Shown here piece by piece: positions 5,877-64,000 of a stretch of DNA of 64,000 nt. Source of the stretch: Pseudoxanthomonas winnipegensis (lineage in GTDB: Bacteria > Pseudomonadota > Gammaproteobacteria > Xanthomonadales > Xanthomonadaceae); the NCBI RefSeq assembly GCF_004283755.1, contig NZ_SHMH01000001.1, positions 62,001 through 126,000 on the forward strand, given 5' to 3'. The notes beneath the pieces were generated by a model. That model did no database searches and was not told the DNA's origin. It saw only the letters and a program-made list of their open reading frames with translations. Position 1 is the stretch's first letter. Every line of letters begins with the position of its first letter. A program made the position numbers and the translations under genes.

Positions 5877-8800
5877 GACGAACCTCCCGGCAGATTGATC
5901 TGCACCTGGTGGACCGCGCCGTCGTCGTGCAGCGCGAAACGGTTGCCCGGCTGGCGCACGCCGTCCACCGACAACGACGGTGCGGCCGCCTCCCCGTAAC
6001 GCACCGTGATGGCGTAGGTGGCCTGGCCAGCGGCGTATTGCAGGCTGAAGGCCTCCCAGCCGGCCGGCACGCGCGGTTCCAGCGTCAGCATCTGACCCTC
6101 GCGGCGCAGGCCCAGCAGCGATTCGAGCAGCAGCCGGTACATCCAGCCGGCCGAGCCGGTGTACCAGGTCCAGCCGCCGCTGCCGGCGTGGTCGCCCACG
6201 GCGTAGACGTCGGCGGCCATCACATAGGGTTCGACCCGGTAGCGCGCCACGCCTTGCGCATCGCGCGCATGGTGGATGGGGTTGATCATCTCCAGCAGCT
6301 GCCAGGCGCGTTCGACCTGACCCAGCTCGGCGAAGGCCATCACCGTCCACACCGCGGCATGGGTGTACTGGCCGCCGTTCTCGCGCACGCCAGGCACGTA
6401 GCCGCGGATATAGCCCGGGTCCGGGCCGTGGCGGTCGAACGGCGGATCCAGCAGCTGGATGATGCCCGCCTCAGGCTTGACCAGATGCGTGTCCAGCGCG
6501 GCCATCGCCTGCTGCACGCGCTGGGCCTGGCCGGCACCGGACAGCACCGCCCAGCTCTGCGAGATCGAATCGATCCGGCATTCCTGCGCCTGCGCCGAGC
6601 CCAGCGGCGTGCCGTCGTCGAACCACGCGCGCCGGTACCAGCCGCCATCCCAGGCGTGCTCCTCGATGCGCGCGGCCAGCGTGTCGGCCTGCGCCTGGCA
6701 CCAGTCCGCGAACGCGCTCTCCCCGCGCCGCCGCGCCACCGGGACGAAGGCCTTGAGCACGTGGATCAGGAAGAAGCCCAGCCACACGCTCTCGCCGCGA
6801 CCGTGCTCGCCGACCTTGTTCATGCCGTCGTTCCAGTCGCCGGTGCCCATCAGCGGCAGGCCACGCTCGCCGAGCAGGCGACAGCCGCGGCGCAGCGCCA
6901 GCACGCAGTGCTCGTACAGGCTGGCATCGCCGGCCGAGACCACCGGCAGGTCGTAGTAGGACTCCTCGTCGTCGTTGACCAGGCGGCCCTCGACGAAGCG
7001 CGCGCGCGCCTCCAGCACGCCCCAGTCCTGGGTGACGTCCAGATAGCGACAGGTCGCCAGCGGCAGCCACAGGTAGTCGTCCGAGCAGCGCGTGCGCACG
7101 CCGCGTCCGGTCGGCGGATGCCACCAGTGCATGGCATCGCCCTGCGGGAACTGCTGGGCGGCCGCGCGCAGCAGGTGTTCGCGCGCGACCTGCGGCAGGG
7201 CATGGACCATGGCCATGCAGTCCTGCAGCTGGTCGCGGAAGCCCCAGGCGCCGCCGGACTGGTAGAAGCCGCTGCGGCCGAAGTAGCGGCTGGCGATCAC
7301 CTGATAGAGCAGCCAGCCGTTGACCAGCAGGTCGAAGGCCGGATCGGGCGTGTTGACCCGGATGCCACCCAGCACGCCGCGCCAGTGGATGCGCACGCGG
7401 TCCAGCGCATCGTGCGCCGCGCCGGCGCCGCGGGTGCGCCGGGCCAGTTCGAGCGTGGCGCCGACATCGGCCGCCATGCCCAGCCGGAAGGTGGTCTCGA
7501 AGCTGCCGCCGGCTTCCAACGCGATCGGCACCTGCAGCGCGGCGCAGGCGTCCAGCCCCGGGCCGAAACGGCCGGACAGCCCCTCGCGGCGCAGTCCGGC
7601 CGGCGCGGCCAGGCTGCCGTTGCGGCCCAGGAACTCGAGCCGGTCGGCGGTGAACTGGCGCAGCAGCGTGCCGTCTTCCGGATTGACCCCGGCATCGACA
7701 TCGAAGAACGCGCAGCACCCCTCGAAATCGCCGTTGAACGGATTGCGCGCGGTGAGCACGCCGCTGGCGATGTCCACGTCGGTAATCAGATGCATCTGCG
7801 AGCGGCTGCGAAGGTCGGCCAGCACCCATTCGACATAGCCGGTGGCGCTGAGCCGGCGCGCGCGGCCGGACAGGTTGCGCAGCCTGAGCACGCTGTACTT
7901 CACCGCCAGCTCCGCATCCACGTACAGCCACAGCTCGCTGTGGATGCCGTCCTCGACGTGCTCGAACACGCTGTAGCCGAAGCCATGGCGCACCCGGTAC
8001 GCGCCGCTGCCCGAGCACGGCAGCGGCGTGGGCGACCACAGCTGGCCGCTGTCCTCGTCGCGCAGGTAGAACGCCTCGCCGCTGCTGTCGCACACCGGGT
8101 CGTTGTCCCAGGGCGTGAGGCGGTATTCGTGGGCGTTCTCGCCCCAGCTATAGCCGGCGCCGGATTCGGTCACCACCGCGCCCAGCACCGGGTTGGCCAG
8201 CAGGTTGGACCACGGCGCCGGCGTCGGCCGGCCGGGCGCCACGGTGATCACGTACTCGCGGCCATCGGCGCTGAAGCCGCCGGTGCCGTTGTCGAACTGC
8301 AGCGGCCCGGCCTGCAGCGGCTCGAACGGCCAGGGATCCTCGTCGGCCGGATCGGTCTGCACCACAGGCGGCAGCCCGGCCACGGCGCCCTCGCCCGCCC
8401 GCCAGGCGGCCGGTCGCGGCGGCTGCGCCGGCAGCGGCGCGGGCGGCTCACGCTCCAGCACCGGCAGGCGATCGACCTGCTCGGCCAGGGTGCCGGCGCG
8501 GTCGGTCAGCACCACGCGTGCCACCGACAGCAGCAGCACGCGGTCTTCCTGGCCCAGCTGCTGCACGGCGCGCACGAAGATGCCGCCGCGCCGCTCCAGC
8601 ACCTCGGCGCGCTGGTCGCGCGCCAGCAGCGCCAGGATCTGCTCCTGCAGCTGCTGGCGGTAGCCGGCCTGGCTCTCGTTCCAGATCACCAGGTCGGTCT
8701 CCAGGCCCTTCAGGCGCCAGTACTGGTGCGCCTGCACGACCTGTTCGACCAGCGGCAGGTGGTCCACGTCGGAGACCTGCAGCAGCACGATGGGCAGATC

Positions 8801-11800
8801 GCCGGAGATCGCCTGCGCCCACAGCGCCGGCTGGGCGCGGCGGTTCTGGCGCAGGGTGTCGGCGTCGGCGCGCAGCACCGGGTCGGGCTGCAGCACCAGC
8901 GCGGCCAGGCGCTCGTAGACCTGTACGTCGGCCTCGTGCGCGTTGATCTGGCGGTGCACGACCTGGCTGTGGGTCCAGGCCAGGTCGAACACGCGGTCGG
9001 CCAGGCGCCGGTCGCGGTACTTTTCGATCAGCGCATCGCAGGCGGCCTCGTCCTCGCCCACGCCGGTGACCAGGTCGAGCACGGCCTGCTGGCCGGGCTG
9101 CAGGGTGATGCGCACGCGGATGGCGACGATCGGGTCGAGCACCGAGCCTTCGCTGTTGTCCAGCGCCAGGCGCTCCATCGCCAGCGGCCGCGCCGCGCTG
9201 CGCCCGCGGCCGATGAAGCGGGCGCGGTCGGTCTCGTAGGAGATCTGTTCGATGTCGCAGTCGTGCGCGGCCACCAGATGCAGCAGCTGCGGCGGCCGCT
9301 CGCCGGCCTCGCGCGCGCGGCGCCGGCAGACGATGGCCTGCTTGGCGGCCAGGATGCGGGTCTGCACGAACAGATTGCCGAAGGCCGGGTGCGCCTCGTC
9401 GGCGCGCGGCGCCTGCAGCACGACCTCGGCATAGGTGGTGACCTCGACGGTGCGCGGATGGCGCGCGCGGTTCTTCAGCCGCAGGCGGCGCAGCTCGATG
9501 TCGTCCTCGGCCGACACGGCGATCTCCAGATGGCTGTCGATGCCGCGGTGGCGCACGCGGAACTCGGCCTTGGCCTGGGAGAAGATCGCCTCGAAGTGCT
9601 GGGTGCGCACGCAGGTGGGCTGATACGCGGCCGACCAGTACTCGCCCGATTCGGCATCGCGCAGATAGCAGAAGCTGCCGTAGGCATCGCGCGTGGGGTC
9701 CTCGCGCCAGCGCGTGAGCGCGGTGCCTTCCAGGCGCGTATAGCCGCCGCCGGCCACGGTGAGCATGGCGTGGTAGCGCCCGTTGGACAGCAGCTGCACC
9801 TCCGGGCGCGGGCCGTCGGGATCGCGCAGGATGCGCAGCTGCGGCCCGGCCGCGGCCGCTGCGCCGTCGGCGGGGCTGGGCGCCTCGGACTCGTGCGCCG
9901 GCACCACGCCGGCGGCGGGCATGCGCTCCTGCAGCAGCAGCAGGGCCGCGCGCAGTGCCGGGTCGGCGGCGAAGCGCTTCTGCATCGGCTGTTCGACCAG
10001 CAGGTGGTCCAGCGACAGCAGCGCCATGCCCTGGTGATGGGCCATGTAGGAGCGGATCACCACGTGGCGTTCGCCGCGCGGCAGGCGCTCGGCGGTGTAG
10101 TCCACCGCCTCGTACATGCCGAACGCGCCGGAGAAGCCCTGCGCGGCCATCGCCTGCAGGTTCTCCAGCGCCGCCGGCGGATGCACCATCAGCGCCATCA
10201 CCGTGGCGTAGGGCGCGATCACCGCGTCCTGCGCCAGGCCGCGCTTGAGCCCCAGTCCCGGCACGCCGAAGGCGCGGTACTGGTAGTTCATGTTCACGTC
10301 CACGGCGTTGTAGCCGGACTCGGACACGCCCCAGGGGATCTGCCGCGCCTGGCCGTATTCGATCTGCGCCTGGACCACGCCGTGCGCGGTCTGGTCGAGC
10401 AGCGAGCCGGGGTAGCTGGGCATCACCAGCTGCGGCATCAGGTACTCGAACATCGAGCCGCTCCAGGACACCAGCACCGGCTCGCCGCCGCCCTCGGTCA
10501 GCAGCCGGCCCAGGGCGAACCAGCTCTCCTGCGGCAGCTGGCCCTGGGCGATGGCCACGAAGCAGCCCAGCCGCGCCTCGGAGGCCAGCAGGTCGTAGAA
10601 GCCCGCGTCCAGGCGGCTCTCATCGACGTTGTAGCCGATCGACAGCATCCGCTGCGCCGGGTCGTAGAGGAAGCGATAGTCCTGCTCGGCGTGCCGCGCG
10701 GCCAGTTCGGCCAGCGCTTCCAGCTCGTCCAGCTGGCGCGCCGCGAGGCCGCCGGGCTCGGCATCGGCCAGCGCGCGCAACGTGGCCGGCACGGCGTGCT
10801 CGCCGGCCGGCAGGGGGCCGGCCTGTTCCAGCATCGCCAGCGCGGACTGGCAGGCCTCCAGCAGACGCGCCGGCCAGTCGATGGGCGCACGCGGCAGGGC
10901 GGCCTGCGTGGCGGCGGCGTCCAGCGCCTGCGCGCGTTCGAGCAGCGTGCGGACCTGCGGCGCAGATGCGTGCTCATCGGTGCGCAGCGGCCGCAGCGTG
11001 TCGGCGAAGGCCTGCAGCGGGGCGGCCAGCGCCTCGCCCAGACCTGCGCGCTGGGCATCGTCTTCCAGCGCGCCCAGGGTGTCGGCCAGGCCGTCGAAGG
11101 TCTTGGGCGCCAGCAGCGGCGCATCGGCCAGCTGCAGCAAGCCCTGGCGCAGGGTCAGCAGATGGCCGGTGAGGTTGCCGCTGTCCACGGTGGACACGTA
11201 GCGCGGCGCCAGCGGACGCAGCGTGTCGGTGGTGTACCAGTTGTAGAGGTGGCCGCGATGGCGTTCCAGCCGGCCCAGCGTGTCCAGCGCGCCGCGCACG
11301 CGCGTCAGCACGCCGGGCAGCTGCAGATAGCCCATGTCCCAGGCCGAGAGGTTGGCCAGCAGCGACAGGCCGATGTTGGTGGGCGAGGTGCGCCGGGCCA
11401 GCACCTGCGCCGGATGTTCCTGCAGGTTGTCCGGCGGCAGCCAGTGCTCCTGTGGGCCGACCCAGGTCTCGAAGAACGCCCAGGTGCGCCGCGCCAGCTG
11501 GCCCAGGAAGCGGCGCTGCGCGCCGTCCAGATGGGTCGAGGCCGCCGGCGGGCGCCGGCCCAGCCAGCCCATCAGCCAGGGCGAGGCCGCCCACAGCGCC
11601 AGGCACGGCACGGCCGCCGGCAGCGCCCACGGCTGCAGCAGCGCCACGGCCGCCAGCACCACCACGGCGAACACCGTCACCGGCCACATCAGCGCCACTT
11701 CCGGCATCTGCCCGCGCACGCTGCGCTCGACATCGCGCGAGACGTTCCACTGCAGCAGGTGCCGGCGCGAAACCGCCAGGCGCCACAGCGTGCGCACGAT

Positions 11801-14560
11801 CGCCAGCGCATTGCTGCCGGCCTGGTGCGGCAGGCAGGCGAAGGTCACTGCCGCCCGGCGCAGCTCGCGCAGGGTGCGCGTGCGCAGCAGCGACAGGTGC
11901 GCATCCAGCGGCAGCTCGCCCGGGCCGGCCAGCGCATCGCGCAGCGCCGCCAGCAGCGGCGGCAGCCACCACGGGCACAGCAGCCACAGCGTCCACACCA
12001 GCGGCGCGGGCACCGCGCACCAGCCGGCCACCAGCAGGGTCAGCGCGGCGATCGGCACCAGGCTGCGGCGCAGGTTGTCGGCCAGCTTGCCGCGCGAGAG
12101 CCAGGACAGCGGGCTGCGCTCCCAGCCGCGCGCGGTCGGCACGCGCGGCAGCAGCCACGGCAGCAGCTGCCAGTCGCCGCGCACCCAGCGCTGGCGGCGC
12201 TTGGCATCGGCGAAATAGCGCTCGGGATAGTCCTCGTACAGGCGCACCTGGCTGACCAGCCCGGCGCGCGCGTAGCAGCCTTCCAGCAGGTCGTGGCTGA
12301 GGATGGCGTTGTCGGGCATGCGCCCGGCCAGCACCTGTTCGAACGCCTCGACCTCGTAGATGCCCTTGCCGACGAACGAGCCCTCGGCGAACAGGTCCTG
12401 GTACACATCGGAAATGGTGCGCGTATACGGGTCGATGCCCGCCTCGCTGCCGAACATGCGCGCATAGCGCGAACGCAGCGCCATCGCGCTGCCCAGGCCC
12501 GGCTGCAGGATGCCGTAGCCGCGCACCACCGTGCGCGTGTCCGGATCGACCACCGGCCGGTTGAGCGGATGGGCCATGGTGCCCACCAGCGCGCGCGCCG
12601 ATTCCAGCGGCAGCTGAGTGTCGGCATCCAGAGTGATGACATAGCGCACCCCGCGCAGCACCTCGGTGCGCCCGACGATGCAGCTGAACGGCGCGGCGTC
12701 GCCCTCGCACAGCAGCGCGTTGAGCGCGGCCAGCTTGCCGCGCTTGCGCTCCAGGCCCATCCAGCGGCCCTCGTGCGGATTCCACTGGCGCGGGCGGTGG
12801 AACAGGTAGAACAGCTCGCCTTCGGCCGCATCGCGGCCCTGTCCATGGCGGGCGTTGAGCGCGGCGATGCGCGCCTGGGCGTGGGCCAGCACGGCCGCAT
12901 CCTGGGGCAGGTGTTCCTGCGCGGCATCGGCGAAGTCGGTCAGCAGGCCGAAGTGCAGATGCGGCCCGCGATTGGCCAGGAACCGCACCTCCAGCGCATC
13001 GACCAGTTCATCGACCGCCTCGGTGTCGGGGATCATCGAGGGCACGATCACCAGCGTGCGCGCCTGCGCCGGGATGCCGGCCTGGTAATCCAGGCTGGGC
13101 AGCGGATGCGGCGTCGCCAGGTTGCTCGCGGTCCAGTTGACCAGCGCCACGCCCAGCTCGCTGAAGGCCAGCAGCGCCAGCACCGCCGCGCCGGCCACCC
13201 AGCCCCAGGCCGGCACGGACGGGGCCAGGGTGCTGGCCAGCAGGCCGGCGGCGAACAGCGCGGCGAACACTGCGATCGGCCCGACATAGGCCAGCAGCGG
13301 CACCGGCCGCACATCGGGCAGCAGCCGGCGCCAGCCGCGGCCGGCCAGCGTGCGCGCGATCTCGCGCGCGCCGTCGCCCAGCAGCCACCAGCCGACGTGG
13401 CCGTGGCCCTCCGGCGCCGCGGCCGCGGCCGCGCGTGCGCGTTCCAGCACCATCGCCGCGATCTCGCCTTCCGGCCGCCCGGCGCGCCGGGCCACGGTCT
13501 CGACCACGCGCCGGTACTGGTCGCGGCTGGCGAAGTCCATGGCCGGATAGGTGCCGTCCGGGTCCTGGCGCAGCAGGTGTTCGATCACGCTGCAGCGCTC
13601 GACGAAGCCGCGCCAGTCCATGCTGGTGATGAAGCGCAGGCTGCCGATGCTGTTGCGGATCGAAGCCTGCGCCGCGGCCTGGCGAATGCTTTCGCGCTGG
13701 ACCACGGCCTCCAGCGAGCGCCCGCTCTCGGCCACCCACTGCTCCACCCAGTCGATCGGCATGTGCGTGGCGAAGTTGCCGCCGCGCAGGTGGCGCAGCA
13801 GTTCGGACACGAAGGCCCCGCGCACCGGCGGCTGCGAGCGCAGCATGTCGGCCAGCACCAGCACCACGTCCTTGGGCGCGCGCTGGGCGGCTTCAGCCAT
13901 GCGCTTGGCCCAGGCCTGGGCCAGGCGGTGATCGCCGACGTCGCGGGTGATGCGCGCGGCGATGCGGCGCAGGTTCTCGATCACCGCCAGGCGCAGCATG
14001 ATCGGCACCGCCCACAGCTCGCCGATGCTCAGCGCCTGTTCCTGCTGGTAGCCCTTGACCAGGCGCTCCAGGGTCTCGGCATCGACCTGGCCATCGCCGT
14101 GGGACACCGCCTGCATGGCCAGGTCGTAGACCCGCGGCAGGCCGGCCGACGGCCCGCTGGCCAGCGCCGGCAGCGCCCGGCTGTAGCCGCTGGGCAGGTG
14201 GCGCCGCGCCAGCCGCACCTGCTCGTCGATCAGGTAGTAGTTGTCCAGCAGCCATTCGCCGGCCGGGACCATCGGCAGCTTGTCGCGGGCGAAGGCGTCC
14301 AGGGCCTGGACCGCGCCCTCGAGCACCGCGCCGTTCTCGGCCAGCCGCGCCAGCATCCGCTCCGGGCCCTGCCCGGCCTGCAGCGTGTGCTGCTGGGACA
14401 GGCGCCGGCCCAGCTGTTCCATCTGGGTGGCGTTGAACAGCTGGGCGCGCAGCGGCGGCTCGGGCGTGGCGGTGCGGACCGCGTCGCGGTGGCGCTGCCG
14501 CCAACGCGCCAGCAACCGCCTCAAGATCCTCCTGCCCCGCCGCCGCCACCCTGCACGCAT
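5873..14560 (-). CDS. ndvB: Cyclic beta-1,2-glucan synthase (NdvB/Cgs)
   Basis: 2895 residues, close to the usual 2800-2900 for the family. Seen in order: a helical N-terminal region (LLDNYYLIDEQVRLARRHLP near residue 110); membrane helices near 405-470; a GT84 glycosyltransferase domain with the donor-binding motif DADTQLP near 643 and QRWVRGDWQ; more membrane helices; a glycoamylase-like domain (SIGYNVDESRLDAGFYDLLASEARL); and a C-terminal GH94 phosphorylase-like domain with GTGDWNDGMNKVGEHGRG near 2575. Family knowledge: the enzyme uses UDP-glucose at the inner membrane, starts on itself, elongates, and closes the ring; the GH94 part controls chain length. The glucan is periplasmic or secreted and matters for osmotic adaptation and, in Xanthomonas, for suppression of plant defence. 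Confidence 0.96.
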   Translation of the reverse strand: MRAGWRRRGRRILRRLLARWRQRHRDAVRTATPEPPLRAQLFNATQMEQLGRRLSQQHTLQAGQGPERMLARLAENGAVLEGAVQALDAFARDKLPMVPAGEWLLDNYYLIDEQVRLARRHLPSGYSRALPALASGPSAGLPRVYDLAMQAVSHGDGQVDAETLERLVKGYQQEQALSIGELWAVPIMLRLAVIENLRRIAARITRDVGDHRLAQAWAKRMAEAAQRAPKDVVLVLADMLRSQPPVRGAFVSELLRHLRGGNFATHMPIDWVEQWVAESGRSLEAVVQRESIRQAAAQASIRNSIGSLRFITSMDWRGFVERCSVIEHLLRQDPDGTYPAMDFASRDQYRRVVETVARRAGRPEGEIAAMVLERARAAAAAAPEGHGHVGWWLLGDGAREIARTLAGRGWRRLLPDVRPVPLLAYVGPIAVFAALFAAGLLASTLAPSVPAWGWVAGAAVLALLAFSELGVALVNWTASNLATPHPLPSLDYQAGIPAQARTLVIVPSMIPDTEAVDELVDALEVRFLANRGPHLHFGLLTDFADAAQEHLPQDAAVLAHAQARIAALNARHGQGRDAAEGELFYLFHRPRQWNPHEGRWMGLERKRGKLAALNALLCEGDAAPFSCIVGRTEVLRGVRYVITLDADTQLPLESARALVGTMAHPLNRPVVDPDTRTVVRGYGILQPGLGSAMALRSRYARMFGSEAGIDPYTRTISDVYQDLFAEGSFVGKGIYEVEAFEQVLAGRMPDNAILSHDLLEGCYARAGLVSQVRLYEDYPERYFADAKRRQRWVRGDWQLLPWLLPRVPTARGWERSPLSWLSRGKLADNLRRSLVPIAALTLLVAGWCAVPAPLVWTLWLLCPWWLPPLLAALRDALAGPGELPLDAHLSLLRTRTLRELRRAAVTFACLPHQAGSNALAIVRTLWRLAVSRRHLLQWNVSRDVERSVRGQMPEVALMWPVTVFAVVVLAAVALLQPWALPAAVPCLALWAASPWLMGWLGRRPPAASTHLDGAQRRFLGQLARRTWAFFETWVGPQEHWLPPDNLQEHPAQVLARRTSPTNIGLSLLANLSAWDMGYLQLPGVLTRVRGALDTLGRLERHRGHLYNWYTTDTLRPLAPRYVSTVDSGNLTGHLLTLRQGLLQLADAPLLAPKTFDGLADTLGALEDDAQRAGLGEALAAPLQAFADTLRPLRTDEHASAPQVRTLLERAQALDAAATQAALPRAPIDWPARLLEACQSALAMLEQAGPLPAGEHAVPATLRALADAEPGGLAARQLDELEALAELAARHAEQDYRFLYDPAQRMLSIGYNVDESRLDAGFYDLLASEARLGCFVAIAQGQLPQESWFALGRLLTEGGGEPVLVSWSGSMFEYLMPQLVMPSYPGSLLDQTAHGVVQAQIEYGQARQIPWGVSESGYNAVDVNMNYQYRAFGVPGLGLKRGLAQDAVIAPYATVMALMVHPPAALENLQAMAAQGFSGAFGMYEAVDYTAERLPRGERHVVIRSYMAHHQGMALLSLDHLLVEQPMQKRFAADPALRAALLLLQERMPAAGVVPAHESEAPSPADGAAAAAGPQLRILRDPDGPRPEVQLLSNGRYHAMLTVAGGGYTRLEGTALTRWREDPTRDAYGSFCYLRDAESGEYWSAAYQPTCVRTQHFEAIFSQAKAEFRVRHRGIDSHLEIAVSAEDDIELRRLRLKNRARHPRTVEVTTYAEVVLQAPRADEAHPAFGNLFVQTRILAAKQAIVCRRRAREAGERPPQLLHLVAAHDCDIEQISYETDRARFIGRGRSAARPLAMERLALDNSEGSVLDPIVAIRVRITLQPGQQAVLDLVTGVGEDEAACDALIEKYRDRRLADRVFDLAWTHSQVVHRQINAHEADVQVYERLAALVLQPDPVLRADADTLRQNRRAQPALWAQAISGDLPIVLLQVSDVDHLPLVEQVVQAHQYWRLKGLETDLVIWNESQAGYRQQLQEQILALLARDQRAEVLERRGGIFVRAVQQLGQEDRVLLLSVARVVLTDRAGTLAEQVDRLPVLEREPPAPLPAQPPRPAAWRAGEGAVAGLPPVVQTDPADEDPWPFEPLQAGPLQFDNGTGGFSADGREYVITVAPGRPTPAPWSNLLANPVLGAVVTESGAGYSWGENAHEYRLTPWDNDPVCDSSGEAFYLRDEDSGQLWSPTPLPCSGSGAYRVRHGFGYSVFEHVEDGIHSELWLYVDAELAVKYSVLRLRNLSGRARRLSATGYVEWVLADLRSRSQMHLITDVDIASGVLTARNPFNGDFEGCCAFFDVDAGVNPEDGTLLRQFTADRLEFLGRNGSLAAPAGLRREGLSGRFGPGLDACAALQVPIALEAGGSFETTFRLGMAADVGATLELARRTRGAGAAHDALDRVRIHWRGVLGGIRVNTPDPAFDLLVNGWLLYQVIASRYFGRSGFYQSGGAWGFRDQLQDCMAMVHALPQVAREHLLRAAAQQFPQGDAMHWWHPPTGRGVRTRCSDDYLWLPLATCRYLDVTQDWGVLEARARFVEGRLVNDDEESYYDLPVVSAGDASLYEHCVLALRRGCRLLGERGLPLMGTGDWNDGMNKVGEHGRGESVWLGFFLIHVLKAFVPVARRRGESAFADWCQAQADTLAARIEEHAWDGGWYRRAWFDDGTPLGSAQAQECRIDSISQSWAVLSGAGQAQRVQQAMAALDTHLVKPEAGIIQLLDPPFDRHGPDPGYIRGYVPGVRENGGQYTHAAVWTVMAFAELGQVERAWQLLEMINPIHHARDAQGVARYRVEPYVMAADVYAVGDHAGSGGWTWYTGSAGWMYRLLLESLLGLRREGQMLTLEPRVPAGWEAFSLQYAAGQATYAITVRYGEAAAPSLSVDGVRQPGNRFALHDDGAVHQVQINLPGGSS

Positions 14561-60056: not shown

Positions 60057-62885
60057 ATGACCACCCGCCGTCTCCGCTCCCACCGCAGCCCGCGCCCGCT
60101 CCGCCGCGCCCCCCTGACCCGCCTGATCCTCCTGGCTCTGGCGATCGCCGCCACGGCGCCCGCCCAGGCGCAGGAAACCTCCGAATCCAACGCCGCCAAG
60201 ACGCTGGACAACGTCATCGTGACCGGCACCCGCCGCGTGGGCATGTCGGTGGACGACAGCCCGGCCCCGGTCCAAGTCGTCACCGCCGAGGCGCTGGAGC
60301 AGTCCGGCGCCCCGGACCTGATGAATCAGCTGGCCTTCCAGGTCCCCAGCTTCAATGCCAGCCAGCAGGGCACCGACATGACCAGCGCCACGCTGGTGGC
60401 CAACATGCGCGCGCTCTCGCCCAACCACACGCTGATCCTGATCAACGGCAAGCGGCGGCACTTCACCTCCAACGTCGCGGTCACCGGCGGCTATGCGGGC
60501 GCGGCCTCGACCGACCTGAGCTTCATCCCGACCAGCGCGATCGCCAGCGCCGAGGTGCTCACCGACGGCGCCGCGGCGCTGTACGGCTCGGACGCCATCG
60601 CCGGCGTGATCAACCTGATCACCAGGAAGAACGCCAGCGGCGGCAGCGTCTCGGCCGGCACCTCCGGCTATGACGATGGCGGCGGCTTCACCACCAACTA
60701 TCAGGGCGACTTCGGCATCGGCGACGACACCACCTACTTCAACCTGGCCCTGGAAAGCGAACGCCGCCAGACCATCAACCGGCCCGGCGCGCCCTACGGC
60801 GCGGCCGCCTGCGTGGCCGACCGCCTGGCCAATCCGACCCGCGGCTGCCCGGCCACCGGCACCGCGACCACGCCTAGCGGCTACCCCAGCTCGACCGGCA
60901 ACGCGGCGCTGGGACGCGAGAACGAATACAACATGATCTACAACCCCTGGTTCCCCAATAACAGCCACCAGGGCGATTCGCCGGCGATCCAGCGCGATGT
61001 GGGCTTCCTGAGCGCCGGGATGTTCCTGGACGACAGCACCGAGCTCTACGGCACCGGCAGCTTCGGCAAGAAGAAGACCCAGAGCTGGCAGAGCTACCGC
61101 CGCCCCTCGCAGGACGGCGGCGTGGACCGCAATGGCGACGGCGACCGCACCGATCCCATCGGCGGCACCGGCCCGCGCAGCGGCAGGCCGCTGACCGAGG
61201 CGGACATCAACAAGTATCCCTACGGCTTCTCGCCCTCGATCGATACCGACGAGAAGGACTGGGAGGTGGGCGTGGGCATCACCGGCGAGCTGGCCGGCTG
61301 GCGCTACGACCTGTCCACCAACTACGGCAAGAACCAGATGGAAATCGACGTCACCAAGTCGATGAATTTCACCTTGTGGAACCGCACCGGCGCCTCGCCC
61401 GAGAGCTTCTACGTCGGCCGCTTCAGCGCGACGCAATGGGATACCGCGCTGGACCTGAGCCGCGACTTCGACTGGGGCCTGGCCGCGCCGACCACCATCG
61501 CGGCCGGCCTGGAGTATCGCGAGGACACCTACGGCATCGACCCGGGCGATGCGGCCTCGTACACCGGCGCGGGCTCGGCCTCCTTCCCCGGCTACAACCC
61601 GGCCGCGACCGGCAGCTGGGAGCGCAACAACAAGGCCGCCTTCGTCAACGTGATCCTCAACCCGACCGAGCACTGGATCGTCGACGCGGCCGCGCGCTAC
61701 GAGCGCTACAGCGACTTCGGCAGCAAGGCGGTCGGCAAGCTGACCACACGCTACGACTTCAACGAGCGCTTCGCCGTGCGCGGCACCTACAGCACCGGCT
61801 TCCGCGCCCCGACCATGGGCGAGAGCTACTACACCGCCATCCAGGTCGGCCCGACCGCGGCCACCGCGACGCTGCAGGCGGCCAACGTCGGCAGCGGCCT
61901 GAAGCCGGAAACCAGCCGCAACTTCAGCGTGGGCCTGGTGTTCAAGCCGCTGGACAACCTGACCACCACCCTGGATGCCTACCAGATCCGCATCGACGAC
62001 CGCATCCGCCTGGGCAGCACGCTGCTGTACTCGACCAGCCAGTCGGTGGACACCTTGTGCGGACGCACCGCCGGCTGCGTGCCCAACCCCAACCTGCCCG
62101 ACCCGGCCGACACCAACCGCGACGGTCGCCCCGACGATGCCTACAACCAGACGCTCGGCGCCGCGCTGGTCGCGGGCGGCTTCATCTCCAACGGCAGCGA
62201 TCCCACCGCGCCGGGCGGCAGCATGGACGCCACCGCGCGCGCCAACATCGGCCTGAACTTCTTCACCAACGCCATGGACACCAAGACGACCGGCGTGGAC
62301 TGGGTGACGACCTACAGCATCGCCTTCGACTGGGCCGCGATCGACTGGACCCTGGCGGCCAACTACAACAAGACCGAAGTCACCCGCGTCGGCAACGCGC
62401 CCGCCGACCTCGGCGGACGCGCGCTGCTGACCGATGCCGACGTCGCCACCATCCAGTACAACAGCCCGAAGTACCGGGTCAACCTGGGTGCGAACATCCG
62501 CTTCGGCGAGCGCCTGGCCCTGAACATCCGCGAGAACGTCTACGGCCCGCAGTACACGCTGGGCACCACCAGCGCGTATGCCGCGTTCCCGCAGATCATG
62601 AACACGCTGGATCTGACCACCATCAACGGGGTGACCTACTACAAGGCCAAGATCGGCACGCTCTACACCACCAACATCGAACTGGCCTACACCCTCGATC
62701 AGCGCCTGCGTTTTAGCATCGGCGCCGACAACCTGTTCAACGCCTACCCGGACAAGACGCCCGCGGCGATCCGCCAGTACAACATCGAGCGTTATGCCAC
62801 CACCGGCGCGCGCGACTACCTGCTCGGCAGTCCGCTGGGCTTCTTCGGCACGCGCTGGTTCGCCAAGGTGTCCTACACATGGTGA
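60057..62885 (+). CDS. TonB-dependent receptor of the TBDR-cytochrome-flavoprotein unit
   Basis: 942 residues from MTTRRLRSHRS. Seen: signal peptide (LILLALAIAATAPAQAQE), TonB box VIVTGTRR, plug with PDLMNQLAFQVPSFNASQQGTDMTSATLVANMRALSPNHTLILINGKRRHF, and SAEVLTDGAAALYGSDAIAGVINLITRK; a barrel of about 700 residues, terminal GTRWFAKVSYTW. Cys pair in LCGRTAGC. Role: energised uptake through the outer membrane; the long-loop type is usual for sugars, peptides or other organic ligands. Its stop overlaps the ATG of the cytochrome gene by seven bases, so it is the first gene of the unit. The start is chosen for the signal peptide; frames reaching 59928 are not signal-like. Confidence 0.9.
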   Translation: MTTRRLRSHRSPRPLRRAPLTRLILLALAIAATAPAQAQETSESNAAKTLDNVIVTGTRRVGMSVDDSPAPVQVVTAEALEQSGAPDLMNQLAFQVPSFNASQQGTDMTSATLVANMRALSPNHTLILINGKRRHFTSNVAVTGGYAGAASTDLSFIPTSAIASAEVLTDGAAALYGSDAIAGVINLITRKNASGGSVSAGTSGYDDGGGFTTNYQGDFGIGDDTTYFNLALESERRQTINRPGAPYGAAACVADRLANPTRGCPATGTATTPSGYPSSTGNAALGRENEYNMIYNPWFPNNSHQGDSPAIQRDVGFLSAGMFLDDSTELYGTGSFGKKKTQSWQSYRRPSQDGGVDRNGDGDRTDPIGGTGPRSGRPLTEADINKYPYGFSPSIDTDEKDWEVGVGITGELAGWRYDLSTNYGKNQMEIDVTKSMNFTLWNRTGASPESFYVGRFSATQWDTALDLSRDFDWGLAAPTTIAAGLEYREDTYGIDPGDAASYTGAGSASFPGYNPAATGSWERNNKAAFVNVILNPTEHWIVDAAARYERYSDFGSKAVGKLTTRYDFNERFAVRGTYSTGFRAPTMGESYYTAIQVGPTAATATLQAANVGSGLKPETSRNFSVGLVFKPLDNLTTTLDAYQIRIDDRIRLGSTLLYSTSQSVDTLCGRTAGCVPNPNLPDPADTNRDGRPDDAYNQTLGAALVAGGFISNGSDPTAPGGSMDATARANIGLNFFTNAMDTKTTGVDWVTTYSIAFDWAAIDWTLAANYNKTEVTRVGNAPADLGGRALLTDADVATIQYNSPKYRVNLGANIRFGERLALNIRENVYGPQYTLGTTSAYAAFPQIMNTLDLTTINGVTYYKAKIGTLYTTNIELAYTLDQRLRFSIGADNLFNAYPDKTPAAIRQYNIERYATTGARDYLLGSPLGFFGTRWFAKVSYTW

Positions 62886-63394
62886 GCGACCGGGCCGGCG
62901 TCCGCGCATCGGCCACGGCGTCCCCGCCTTCGGGCGGGGGCGCCGGCGCGCAGACGCCTTCTTCCAGTTCCAGGTCCGCTCGCCATCGCATGCCTGGCGT
63001 GTTGGCCTTCCTGCTGCTCGCTTCGCCGGCCGTGGGCGCAAGCGGGCAGGCGGCGGACGCGGTGCCTTTCACCGCGCAGCAGAGCGCACAGGGCGCACGC
63101 GTCTACGCCCAGCACTGCGCCGCCTGCCATGGCCAGCAGCTGGAAGGCTTCTCCGGGCCGGTGCTGGCCGGCCCGGCGTTCTACGGCCGCGACATGGGCG
63201 TGCCGCTGCATGCGACCTTCCAGTACATGGCCCGGGAAATGCCGGTCGGCCGCCCCGGCTCGCTGCGTCGCGAGGACTACGCCGCGCTGATGGCCCTGAT
63301 CCTGGAGAAGAACGGCTACCCCGCCGGTGACGTTGCGCTGGACTACGACACCGCCCTGCACGCCGACGCCCCGCTCTACTTCCATCGCCCCTGA
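62879..63394 (+). CDS. Exported c-type cytochrome
   Basis: 171 residues. Seen: heme site CAACH (80-84), a probable Met ligand in MAREMPVGRPGSL, and a hydrophobic export segment (PGVLAFLLLASPAVGAS, about 39-55). Single-heme class I type. Two starts are possible: the ATG at 62879 (seven-base overlap with the receptor gene) and the Met at 62990 right before the hydrophobic segment, which would leave no positive charges in front. Role: electron carrier or subunit in the periplasm, likely accepting electrons from the flavoprotein encoded 70 bases downstream. Without other electron-transfer genes nearby this is inferred. Confidence 0.88.
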   Translation: MVSDRAGVRASATASPPSGGGAGAQTPSSSSRSARHRMPGVLAFLLLASPAVGASGQAADAVPFTAQQSAQGARVYAQHCAACHGQQLEGFSGPVLAGPAFYGRDMGVPLHATFQYMAREMPVGRPGSLRREDYAALMALILEKNGYPAGDVALDYDTALHADAPLYFHRP

Positions 63395-63464
63395 GCGTGC
63401 ATGCGGCGGGTGGGGGCCAGTCTCCAGCCGCGCCGCATGAATGCCCCATCCGAGGACTGCTTCG

Positions 63465-64000
63465 ATGCAACGACGAGACTTCATGATTGGCGCGGGGGCC
63501 GCGACGCTGGCCACGCTCGGCGCGGCCGCACCGCCGGCTACTGCGGGAACGGCGACCGCACAGGCCGCGCCGCCCGGAGGGGCCTTGGCCGACCCGCTCG
63601 GCGCGCGCACGCCGCCGCCGGCGTTCGTCCCCACCTCCGGCACCATCGCACCCGTGCGTGCGCGCACCGACCGCATCGCGCGCATCACCGTCTGCACGCG
63701 CCCGTTCCGGGCGCAAGGCCCGCGCATCGAGCGCGAGAAGATCGCCGGCAGGGAGGTCATCCACAACTACGGGCACGGCGGCAGCGGCTGGTCGCTGTCC
63801 TGGGGCTCGGGCCTGGCGGCCGCGGCCGAGGTGCGCAGCACCGGCGTGCGCCAGGCCGCCGTCGTGGGCTGCGGCGTGATCGGCCTGACCACCGCCGTCG
63901 TCCTGCAGCGCCAAGGCATCAAGACCCGCATCTACACCCGCGAACGCGCCCCGGACGTGCGCTCGTTCAACGCCACCGGCCTGTGGACGCCGGACTCGCG
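63465..64000 (+). CDS. Tat-exported DAAO-like FAD oxidoreductase with apparently permuted motifs (C-terminus cut)
   Basis: About 178 residues before the window end. Seen: twin-arginine signal RRDFMIGAGAATLATLGAAA; a Pro/Ala-rich stretch; RTDRIARITVCTRPFRAQGPRIERE followed by VIHNYGHGGSGWSLSWGSG (about 98-116); and then the FAD-binding VVGCGVIGLTTAVVLQRQG (about 133-151). In D-amino acid oxidase the HNYGHGG segment is near the C-terminus and the GxGxxG segment at the N-terminus; here the order is reversed. Role: oxidation of an amine or D-amino acid in the periplasm, with electrons likely passing to the upstream cytochrome. The substrate is unknown. Follows the cytochrome gene by 70 bases. Confidence 0.82.
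   Translation, partial: MQRRDFMIGAGAATLATLGAAAPPATAGTATAQAAPPGGALADPLGARTPPPAFVPTSGTIAPVRARTDRIARITVCTRPFRAQGPRIEREKIAGREVIHNYGHGGSGWSLSWGSGLAAAAEVRSTGVRQAAVVGCGVIGLTTAVVLQRQGIKTRIYTRERAPDVRSFNATGLWTPDS

Follow-up and report, generated by a model that had tools for sequence, protein, structure and literature searches.

The stretch analysed here, a 64,000-nucleotide window of the Pseudoxanthomonas winnipegensis genome (positions 62001-126000 of contig C1 in the 4.49 Mb assembly G000; G and L numbers are our handles for genomes and loci), ends inside a run of genes for a TonB-dependent receptor, a c-type cytochrome and a flavoprotein oxidase, all on the + strand. The third gene, judged from alignments and a structure model, encodes a naturally rearranged form of D-amino acid oxidase (DAAO): its chain is circularly permuted, with the last ~60 residues placed ahead of the first beta strand. 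On balance we favour the view that its product is a periplasmic FAD amino-acid dehydrogenase, probably for D-amino acids, that would be fed by the TonB receptor and be able to pass electrons to a cytochrome c. The permuted order, the modelled fold, the twin-arginine translocation (Tat) motif, the gene linkage and the co-occurrence were computed, and we infer the substrate, its stereochemistry and the electron acceptor. Sequence 3' of the window was taken from L007 (G000:C1:120000-139999). The features of the run, in window coordinates, are:

60057..62885 (ATG 60057), + strand: TonB-dependent outer-membrane receptor, 942 aa; Pfam PF00593 (E 2.7e-32) and PF07715 (E 2.4e-19)
62879..63394 from the first ATG, + strand: small exported mono-haem c-type cytochrome; CAACH motif, PF13442 (E 4.3e-8)
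63465..64000, continuing to 64700 (L007:5466-6701), + strand: Tat-type circularly permuted DAAO-like flavoprotein, of whose 411 residues the first 178 lie in the window
63465..63566, + strand: twin-arginine signal peptide MQRRDFMIGAGAATLATLGAAAPPATAGTATAQA, read from sequence, cleavage site by eye; the RR is kept in relatives
63666..63836, + strand: transposed segment, residues 68-124, corresponding to the DAAO C-terminal end (about 270-328) in phmmer and profile alignments to 6rkf, 7ct4 and 2du8 and DSSP of the model
63846..64000, + strand: start of the Rossmann FAD-binding domain AAVVGCGVIGLTTA, corresponding to the DAAO N-terminus

The C-terminal ~60 residues of DAAO, with the substrate-binding arginine, the HNYGHGG motif and the last helix, precede the FAD-binding GxGxxG in the oxidase. 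Profile and sequence alignments show swapped blocks instead of the usual chain order, with the Rossmann strand first and the HNYGHGG helix last, and the oxidase chain ends at about DAAO residue 269. The closest matches are DAAO and D-aspartate oxidase (DASPO) chains, 6rkf at E 6.4e-16 among them. The two-domain FAD fold of DAAO is present in the oxidase, and the AlphaFold2 model is confident (pLDDT 89.5). By alignment and DSSP, rather than superposed coordinates, the transposed segment appears to occupy the place of the DAAO C-terminal end.

The permuted order recurs in 138 of the 139 proteins examined, the remaining one (L144) being unjudgeable. This set comprises 84 proteins from the genus and one-genome-per-species scans, 49 from the Xanthomonadaceae and phylum scans and six others including the window's own, and a few of its rows repeat one gene or an identical sequence. 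An annotation, frameshift or assembly artefact is next to inconceivable as the source of the permutation: we found no point in support of it, and the same order is read in one open frame in several phyla and independent assemblies, with the confident model arguing the same way. A PDB search found no solved structure with the permuted order, and a search of the open literature (titles and abstract starts, with subscription papers and preprints outside its scope) found no paper on a natural permuted DAAO. As far as these sources show, the combined permuted and exported architecture is undescribed; its fold and chemistry class are already known.

In the active site R79, in the sequence RPFR, aligns with the RP motif of 6rkf, 7ct4 and 8hy5, and we take it to be the counterpart of Arg283 of mammalian DAAO, which binds the substrate carboxylate. 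This arginine is kept in 137 of 138 permuted proteins, and the motif HxYGHGG is constant save at its second position in 71 aligned proteins.

The N-terminus of the oxidase carries a twin-arginine motif, MQRRDFMIGAGAATLATLG, followed by a hydrophobic stretch, and by simple, permissive rules a Tat-like start is found in 133 of 139 permuted proteins, with a lipobox after the twin arginine in 62. The oxidase is therefore probably periplasmic via Tat. A preliminary description of the window had already taken the flavoprotein to be an exported relative of DAAO; its predicted export is supported by the motif and the relatives, and the kinship is confirmed, but the chain does not have the ordinary order, which that description had missed.

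The same description had the three genes co-directional, with a 70-base gap before the oxidase and a seven-base overlap between the first two. They do lie on one strand, and the oxidase ATG (63465) is exactly 70 bases past the cytochrome stop; the overlap exists if the first ATG of the cytochrome is used. The likely signal peptide of the cytochrome, MPGVLAFLLLASPAVGA, begins at ATG 62990, which is probably the true start, as it fits a signal peptide better, and which leaves a 104-base gap after the TonB gene in place of the overlap. The cytochrome has the haem motif CAACH and a candidate methionine ligand, assigned by eye, in REMP. Following the sequence past base 64000, as had been proposed, completes the oxidase at 411 aa, with its stop 700 bases outside the window at coordinate 64700. 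The next gene (64888-65637) lies convergently on the opposite strand, so the run comprises three genes. Rfam gave no match at the gathering threshold across L007.

Linkage of the receptor and the oxidase extends beyond this genome. In two other Xanthomonadaceae genera (G334 and G383) a TonB receptor 83.5-84% identical to that of the window stands directly upstream of the oxidase. The flanks at G383 are syntenic with the window (AMP-ligase 80% and MDH 92% identical), and G334 has an aminotransferase gene upstream, 53% identical to that of the second locus described below. More distant receptors precede the oxidase in Sphingomonas (L067, TonB > oxidase > RidA) and Sphingobium (L092, TonB > oxidase), and an alphaproteobacterial metagenome-assembled genome (MAG), L060, has the order TonB > amine oxidase > cytochrome c > oxidase. 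The oxidase is followed on the same strand by a cytochrome c in Acetobacter (L094) and Kozakia (L103), and, aligned over 85 positions, the window cytochrome shares 42% identity with the Acetobacter nitrogenifigens cytochrome adjoining a permuted oxidase. A family search (E 1e-15) found the cytochrome in two of 198 genomes, the window's own and one other with a 38% match; the window genome also holds, elsewhere, a second cytochrome 41% identical to that of the locus. Opposite-strand neighbours were a cytochrome c at L059 and RidA at L025.

About 240 kb from the window locus, the same genome has a second run, L008, whose export signals were read by eye:

L008 (G000:C1:358000-377999), 6049-12997, - strand: TonB receptor, Tat amine oxidase (PF01593), exported RidA and Tat aminotransferase (PRK09105/PtaA-like)

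From its predicted products, L008 is an exported amino-acid oxidation cluster, and its receptor is a paralogue of the window receptor (51% identical). The amine oxidase (E <= 1e-120) occurs in 34 of 297 Xanthomonadaceae genomes: in 27 of the 37 with the permuted oxidase and in seven of the 260 without (Fisher p 9e-24), while among 54 genera 12 have the oxidase, 10 the amine oxidase and eight both (p 1.8e-5), neither value being corrected for phylogeny. G005, from the same genus as the window genome, carries the amine oxidase too. Nine of 30 amine-oxidase loci were viewed with 1.5 kb flanks, and RidA was present in all nine, the aminotransferase in eight and a TonB receptor in six. Within the genus, the six genomes with the permuted oxidase are all among the eight of 38 that have the TonB family at E 1e-200 (hypergeometric 1e-5, again uncorrected for phylogeny), and in most of the six the matching receptor belongs to the amine-oxidase locus.

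The proposed pathway would run as follows. The Tat system would export the oxidase in folded form, and the adjoining TonB receptor would take up the substrate. In the periplasm the enzyme would oxidise, most likely, an alpha-amino acid and probably a D-amino acid, and the imine product would be hydrolysed spontaneously or by an exported RidA. In the window genome, the adjoining cytochrome c would receive all or some of the electrons and relay them to the respiratory chain, a route proposed for the Gluconacetobacter cluster of a Tat L-amino acid oxidase (LAAO), cytochrome c and RidA (PMC5053998). The oxidase would work beside the products of the L008 locus, whose exported amine oxidase would be of the L type.

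Several results weigh against this proposal. For the permutation itself, in-silico rotation put the blocks in DAAO order, yet the blocks stayed unmerged, and for two ordinary DAAOs the summed score did not rise, going from 110.1 to 100.9 bits in one and from 77.2 to 75.4 bits in the other. For the substrate, the window oxidase has a serine where a classical DAAO would have Tyr228, presumably the position three before the PRRDG-type motif; placed by this motif, not by superposition, the position was readable in 72 of 138 proteins (66 unread), as Asn in 37, Ser in 26, Phe in four, Val in two, Tyr in two and Leu in one. For the co-occurrence, 10 of the 37 oxidase-bearing Xanthomonadaceae genomes lack the amine oxidase. 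For the receptor, G015 has a 76% identical TonB receptor with no oxidase beside it. For the cytochrome, none is present at the syntenic G383 locus or at G334, only four of 88 loci, counting the window, have a cytochrome c on the same strand close to the oxidase (a raw count), and in 49 further loci with 1.5 kb flanks there was none by the oxidase. Our simple gene caller overlooked small cytochrome genes, so cytochromes were sought by motif plus hydrophobic stretch, which can miss some.

With Ser or Asn at the Tyr228 position in 63 of 72 proteins, the oxidase may not be a classical DAAO and its substrate may differ. The enzyme could act on some other carboxylate-bearing amine or hydroxy acid, such as an opine, an N-substituted amino acid or a cyclic imino acid, and in single loci or small groups its gene adjoins genes for beta-lactamase-family serine hydrolases, S15 peptidases or hydantoinase/oxoprolinase. 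We consider this somewhat unlikely, given the near-invariant arginine and HxYGHGG motif and the RidA and amine oxidase neighbours and co-occurrence, which indicate amino acids and imines. By eye, tyrosine is present at the position in L101, L145-L150, L152, L153, L158 and L159; the ordinary DAAO L104 has Tyr there as well, and L105 has Phe. Eight of the tyrosine-bearing members (L145-L150, L152 and L153) are Tat-lipoproteins with an LGG[TS] motif, and these sequence traits perhaps make them the most likely true D-amino acid oxidases of the family.

The absence of the cytochrome at G383 and nearly all other loci implies that the enzyme need not use a dedicated one. DAAO and DASPO, the closest chains, are oxidases, and the permuted enzyme might likewise be a true oxidase that makes H2O2 from O2 in the periplasm, the cytochrome being incidental or serving peroxide removal. 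This is unlikely in our judgement: same-strand cytochromes c lie near the oxidase in L060, L094 and L103 as well as in the window, and in the published lao cluster a Tat flavoprotein is accompanied by a cytochrome c, auxin formation being lost in cytochrome c maturation mutants (PMC5053998).

The preliminary description had also supposed that the three genes form one periplasmic unit and had looked to conservation of their order in relatives. The exact TonB-cytochrome-oxidase order was found in no other examined locus, and that expectation fails; of the unit, the TonB-oxidase pair stands, in G334 and G383, while the cytochrome is sporadic elsewhere (L060, L094, L103). In the Xanthomonas and Dyella loci examined neither partner is adjacent, TonB having been sought only by similarity to three receptors. 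A chance neighbourhood, in which the oxidase alone would be of interest, gains from the 49 loci without a cytochrome and from the solitary receptor of G015, and TonB genes are numerous in Xanthomonadaceae. It nevertheless seems quite improbable beside the TonB-oxidase pairs of G383 and G334, with their 83.5-84% identical receptors, and the presence of the TonB family (E <= 1e-200) in all six oxidase genomes of the genus versus two of the 32 without.

A partner common to the whole oxidase family did not emerge. Clustering of up to five genes per side around 88 oxidases gave no dominant one, the largest fixed-position clusters coming mostly from related genomes, and Pfam annotation of 68 of 85 adjacent same-strand genes (within 250 bases, one duplicate dropped) gave none dominant among the first 25 of 81 families. 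The window oxidase is only ~45% identical to its G383 (L157) and G334 (L156) counterparts, versus 83.5-84% for TonB and, at G383, 92% for MDH and 80% for AMP-ligase; this low identity beside well-kept flanks suggests fast divergence or replacement. An approximately unbiased (AU) test failed to reject a clade of the window oxidase with L134 and L135 (p 0.144), and we therefore do not claim that the oxidase was swapped in from another lineage.

The one-genome-per-species scan returned at least 550 relatives; the best 80 of these, which were read, include Xanthomonadales, Caulobacterales, Sphingomonadales, Rhodospirillales, Acetobacteraceae, Burkholderiales, Acidobacteriota and an Opitutaceae MAG. 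By phylum, the permuted enzyme is found in Pseudomonadota, Acidobacteriota and one Verrucomicrobiota MAG, and without an export signal in an actinomycete. Its occurrence is patchy: at E 1e-30 it was found in 37 of 297 Xanthomonadaceae genomes (some matches partial; 29 of the 36 besides the window's own were read as loci), in 19 of 398 genomes of the phylum and, when the class was drawn evenly, in one of 274, the window's own. A phage search gave no match. In the same genus as the window genome, G015 has an oxidase identical to a Pseudoxanthomonas composti protein.

Some members stand apart. In the same-genus genome G006 the oxidase copy at C1:2260531-2261677 (L014, L019) is broken across two reading frames. 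A MAG labelled Klebsiella pneumoniae (L081) has an oxidase gene that the tree places with Pseudohongiella copies, so the species label is probably mistaken. Nonomuraea, Bradyrhizobium and Rhizobium have another permuted DAAO group, one that lacks an export signal:

L101 5917-7014; L158 5977-7029; L159 5974-7035: signal-less permuted group, Nonomuraea and rhizobial conjugative plasmids

Downstream of these genes is a thiamine-diphosphate enzyme, annotated in rhizobia and read by eye in Nonomuraea, and the rhizobial members have an FAD-binding oxidoreductase upstream. L151 groups with this set in the tree, yet it has a Tat-like start. On the Kozakia baliensis plasmid pKB14400_3 (L103, 1676-14096) the permuted oxidase and cytochrome c lie among serine hydrolases, with an ordinary-order FAD oxidoreductase, a CocE/NonD hydrolase and a TonB receptor, a gene set that may point to the breakdown of amino acids bound as amides or in peptides.

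Circular permutation is, to our knowledge, uncommon in nature among families like that of DAAO, a textbook flavoenzyme. The permuted, mostly exported branch is a natural test of how far an FAD enzyme tolerates new chain ends, and it may serve biosensors and biocatalysis. It also suggests that amino acids, perhaps their D-forms, are oxidised in the periplasm of environmental and plant-associated bacteria.

Compared with the structures 6rkf, 2du8, 7ct4 and 1c0k, the oxidase differs from DAAO and DASPO in its permuted segments, its Tat signal and, mostly, Ser or Asn at the Tyr228 position. Proteus L-amino acid deaminase and Pseudomonas D-arginine dehydrogenase, which are anchored otherwise, align in ordinary order over model residues 127-408 only. 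PMC12502724 lists, for Asaia bogorensis, a released protein named 'D-amino acid oxidase'. The nearest known system is the lao-cccA-ridA cluster of Gluconacetobacter diazotrophicus, whose LAAO has a Tat signal and pfam01593; PMC5053998 states that Caulobacter and Xanthomonas share the conserved cluster and cites earlier work in which cytochrome c maturation mutants yielded 5% of wild-type auxin. Judged from such descriptions rather than direct sequence comparison, the likeness lies in a Tat-signal flavoprotein with cytochrome c and RidA partners, and L008, with its amine oxidase and RidA, appears to be the same kind of locus. The known LAAO is of the amine-oxidase family, whereas the window flavoprotein is a permuted DAAO with a TonB receptor in its run. 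No amine-oxidase-family LAAO gene is in the window run; an amine oxidase lies at L008. Of cytochrome c and RidA, the window run has the former, and of the two loci RidA is at L008 only; in the L060 run, amine oxidase, cytochrome c and permuted enzyme stand together. We tentatively suggest, as a scenario we would not yet lean on, that a natural circular permutation founded this large exported DAAO branch by moving the chain start off the FAD strand, so that a Tat signal or lipid anchor could be attached to a folded FAD enzyme, and that the branch came to serve as the D side of amino-acid respiration in the periplasm, the L side being the Tat LAAO-cytochrome c-RidA system.

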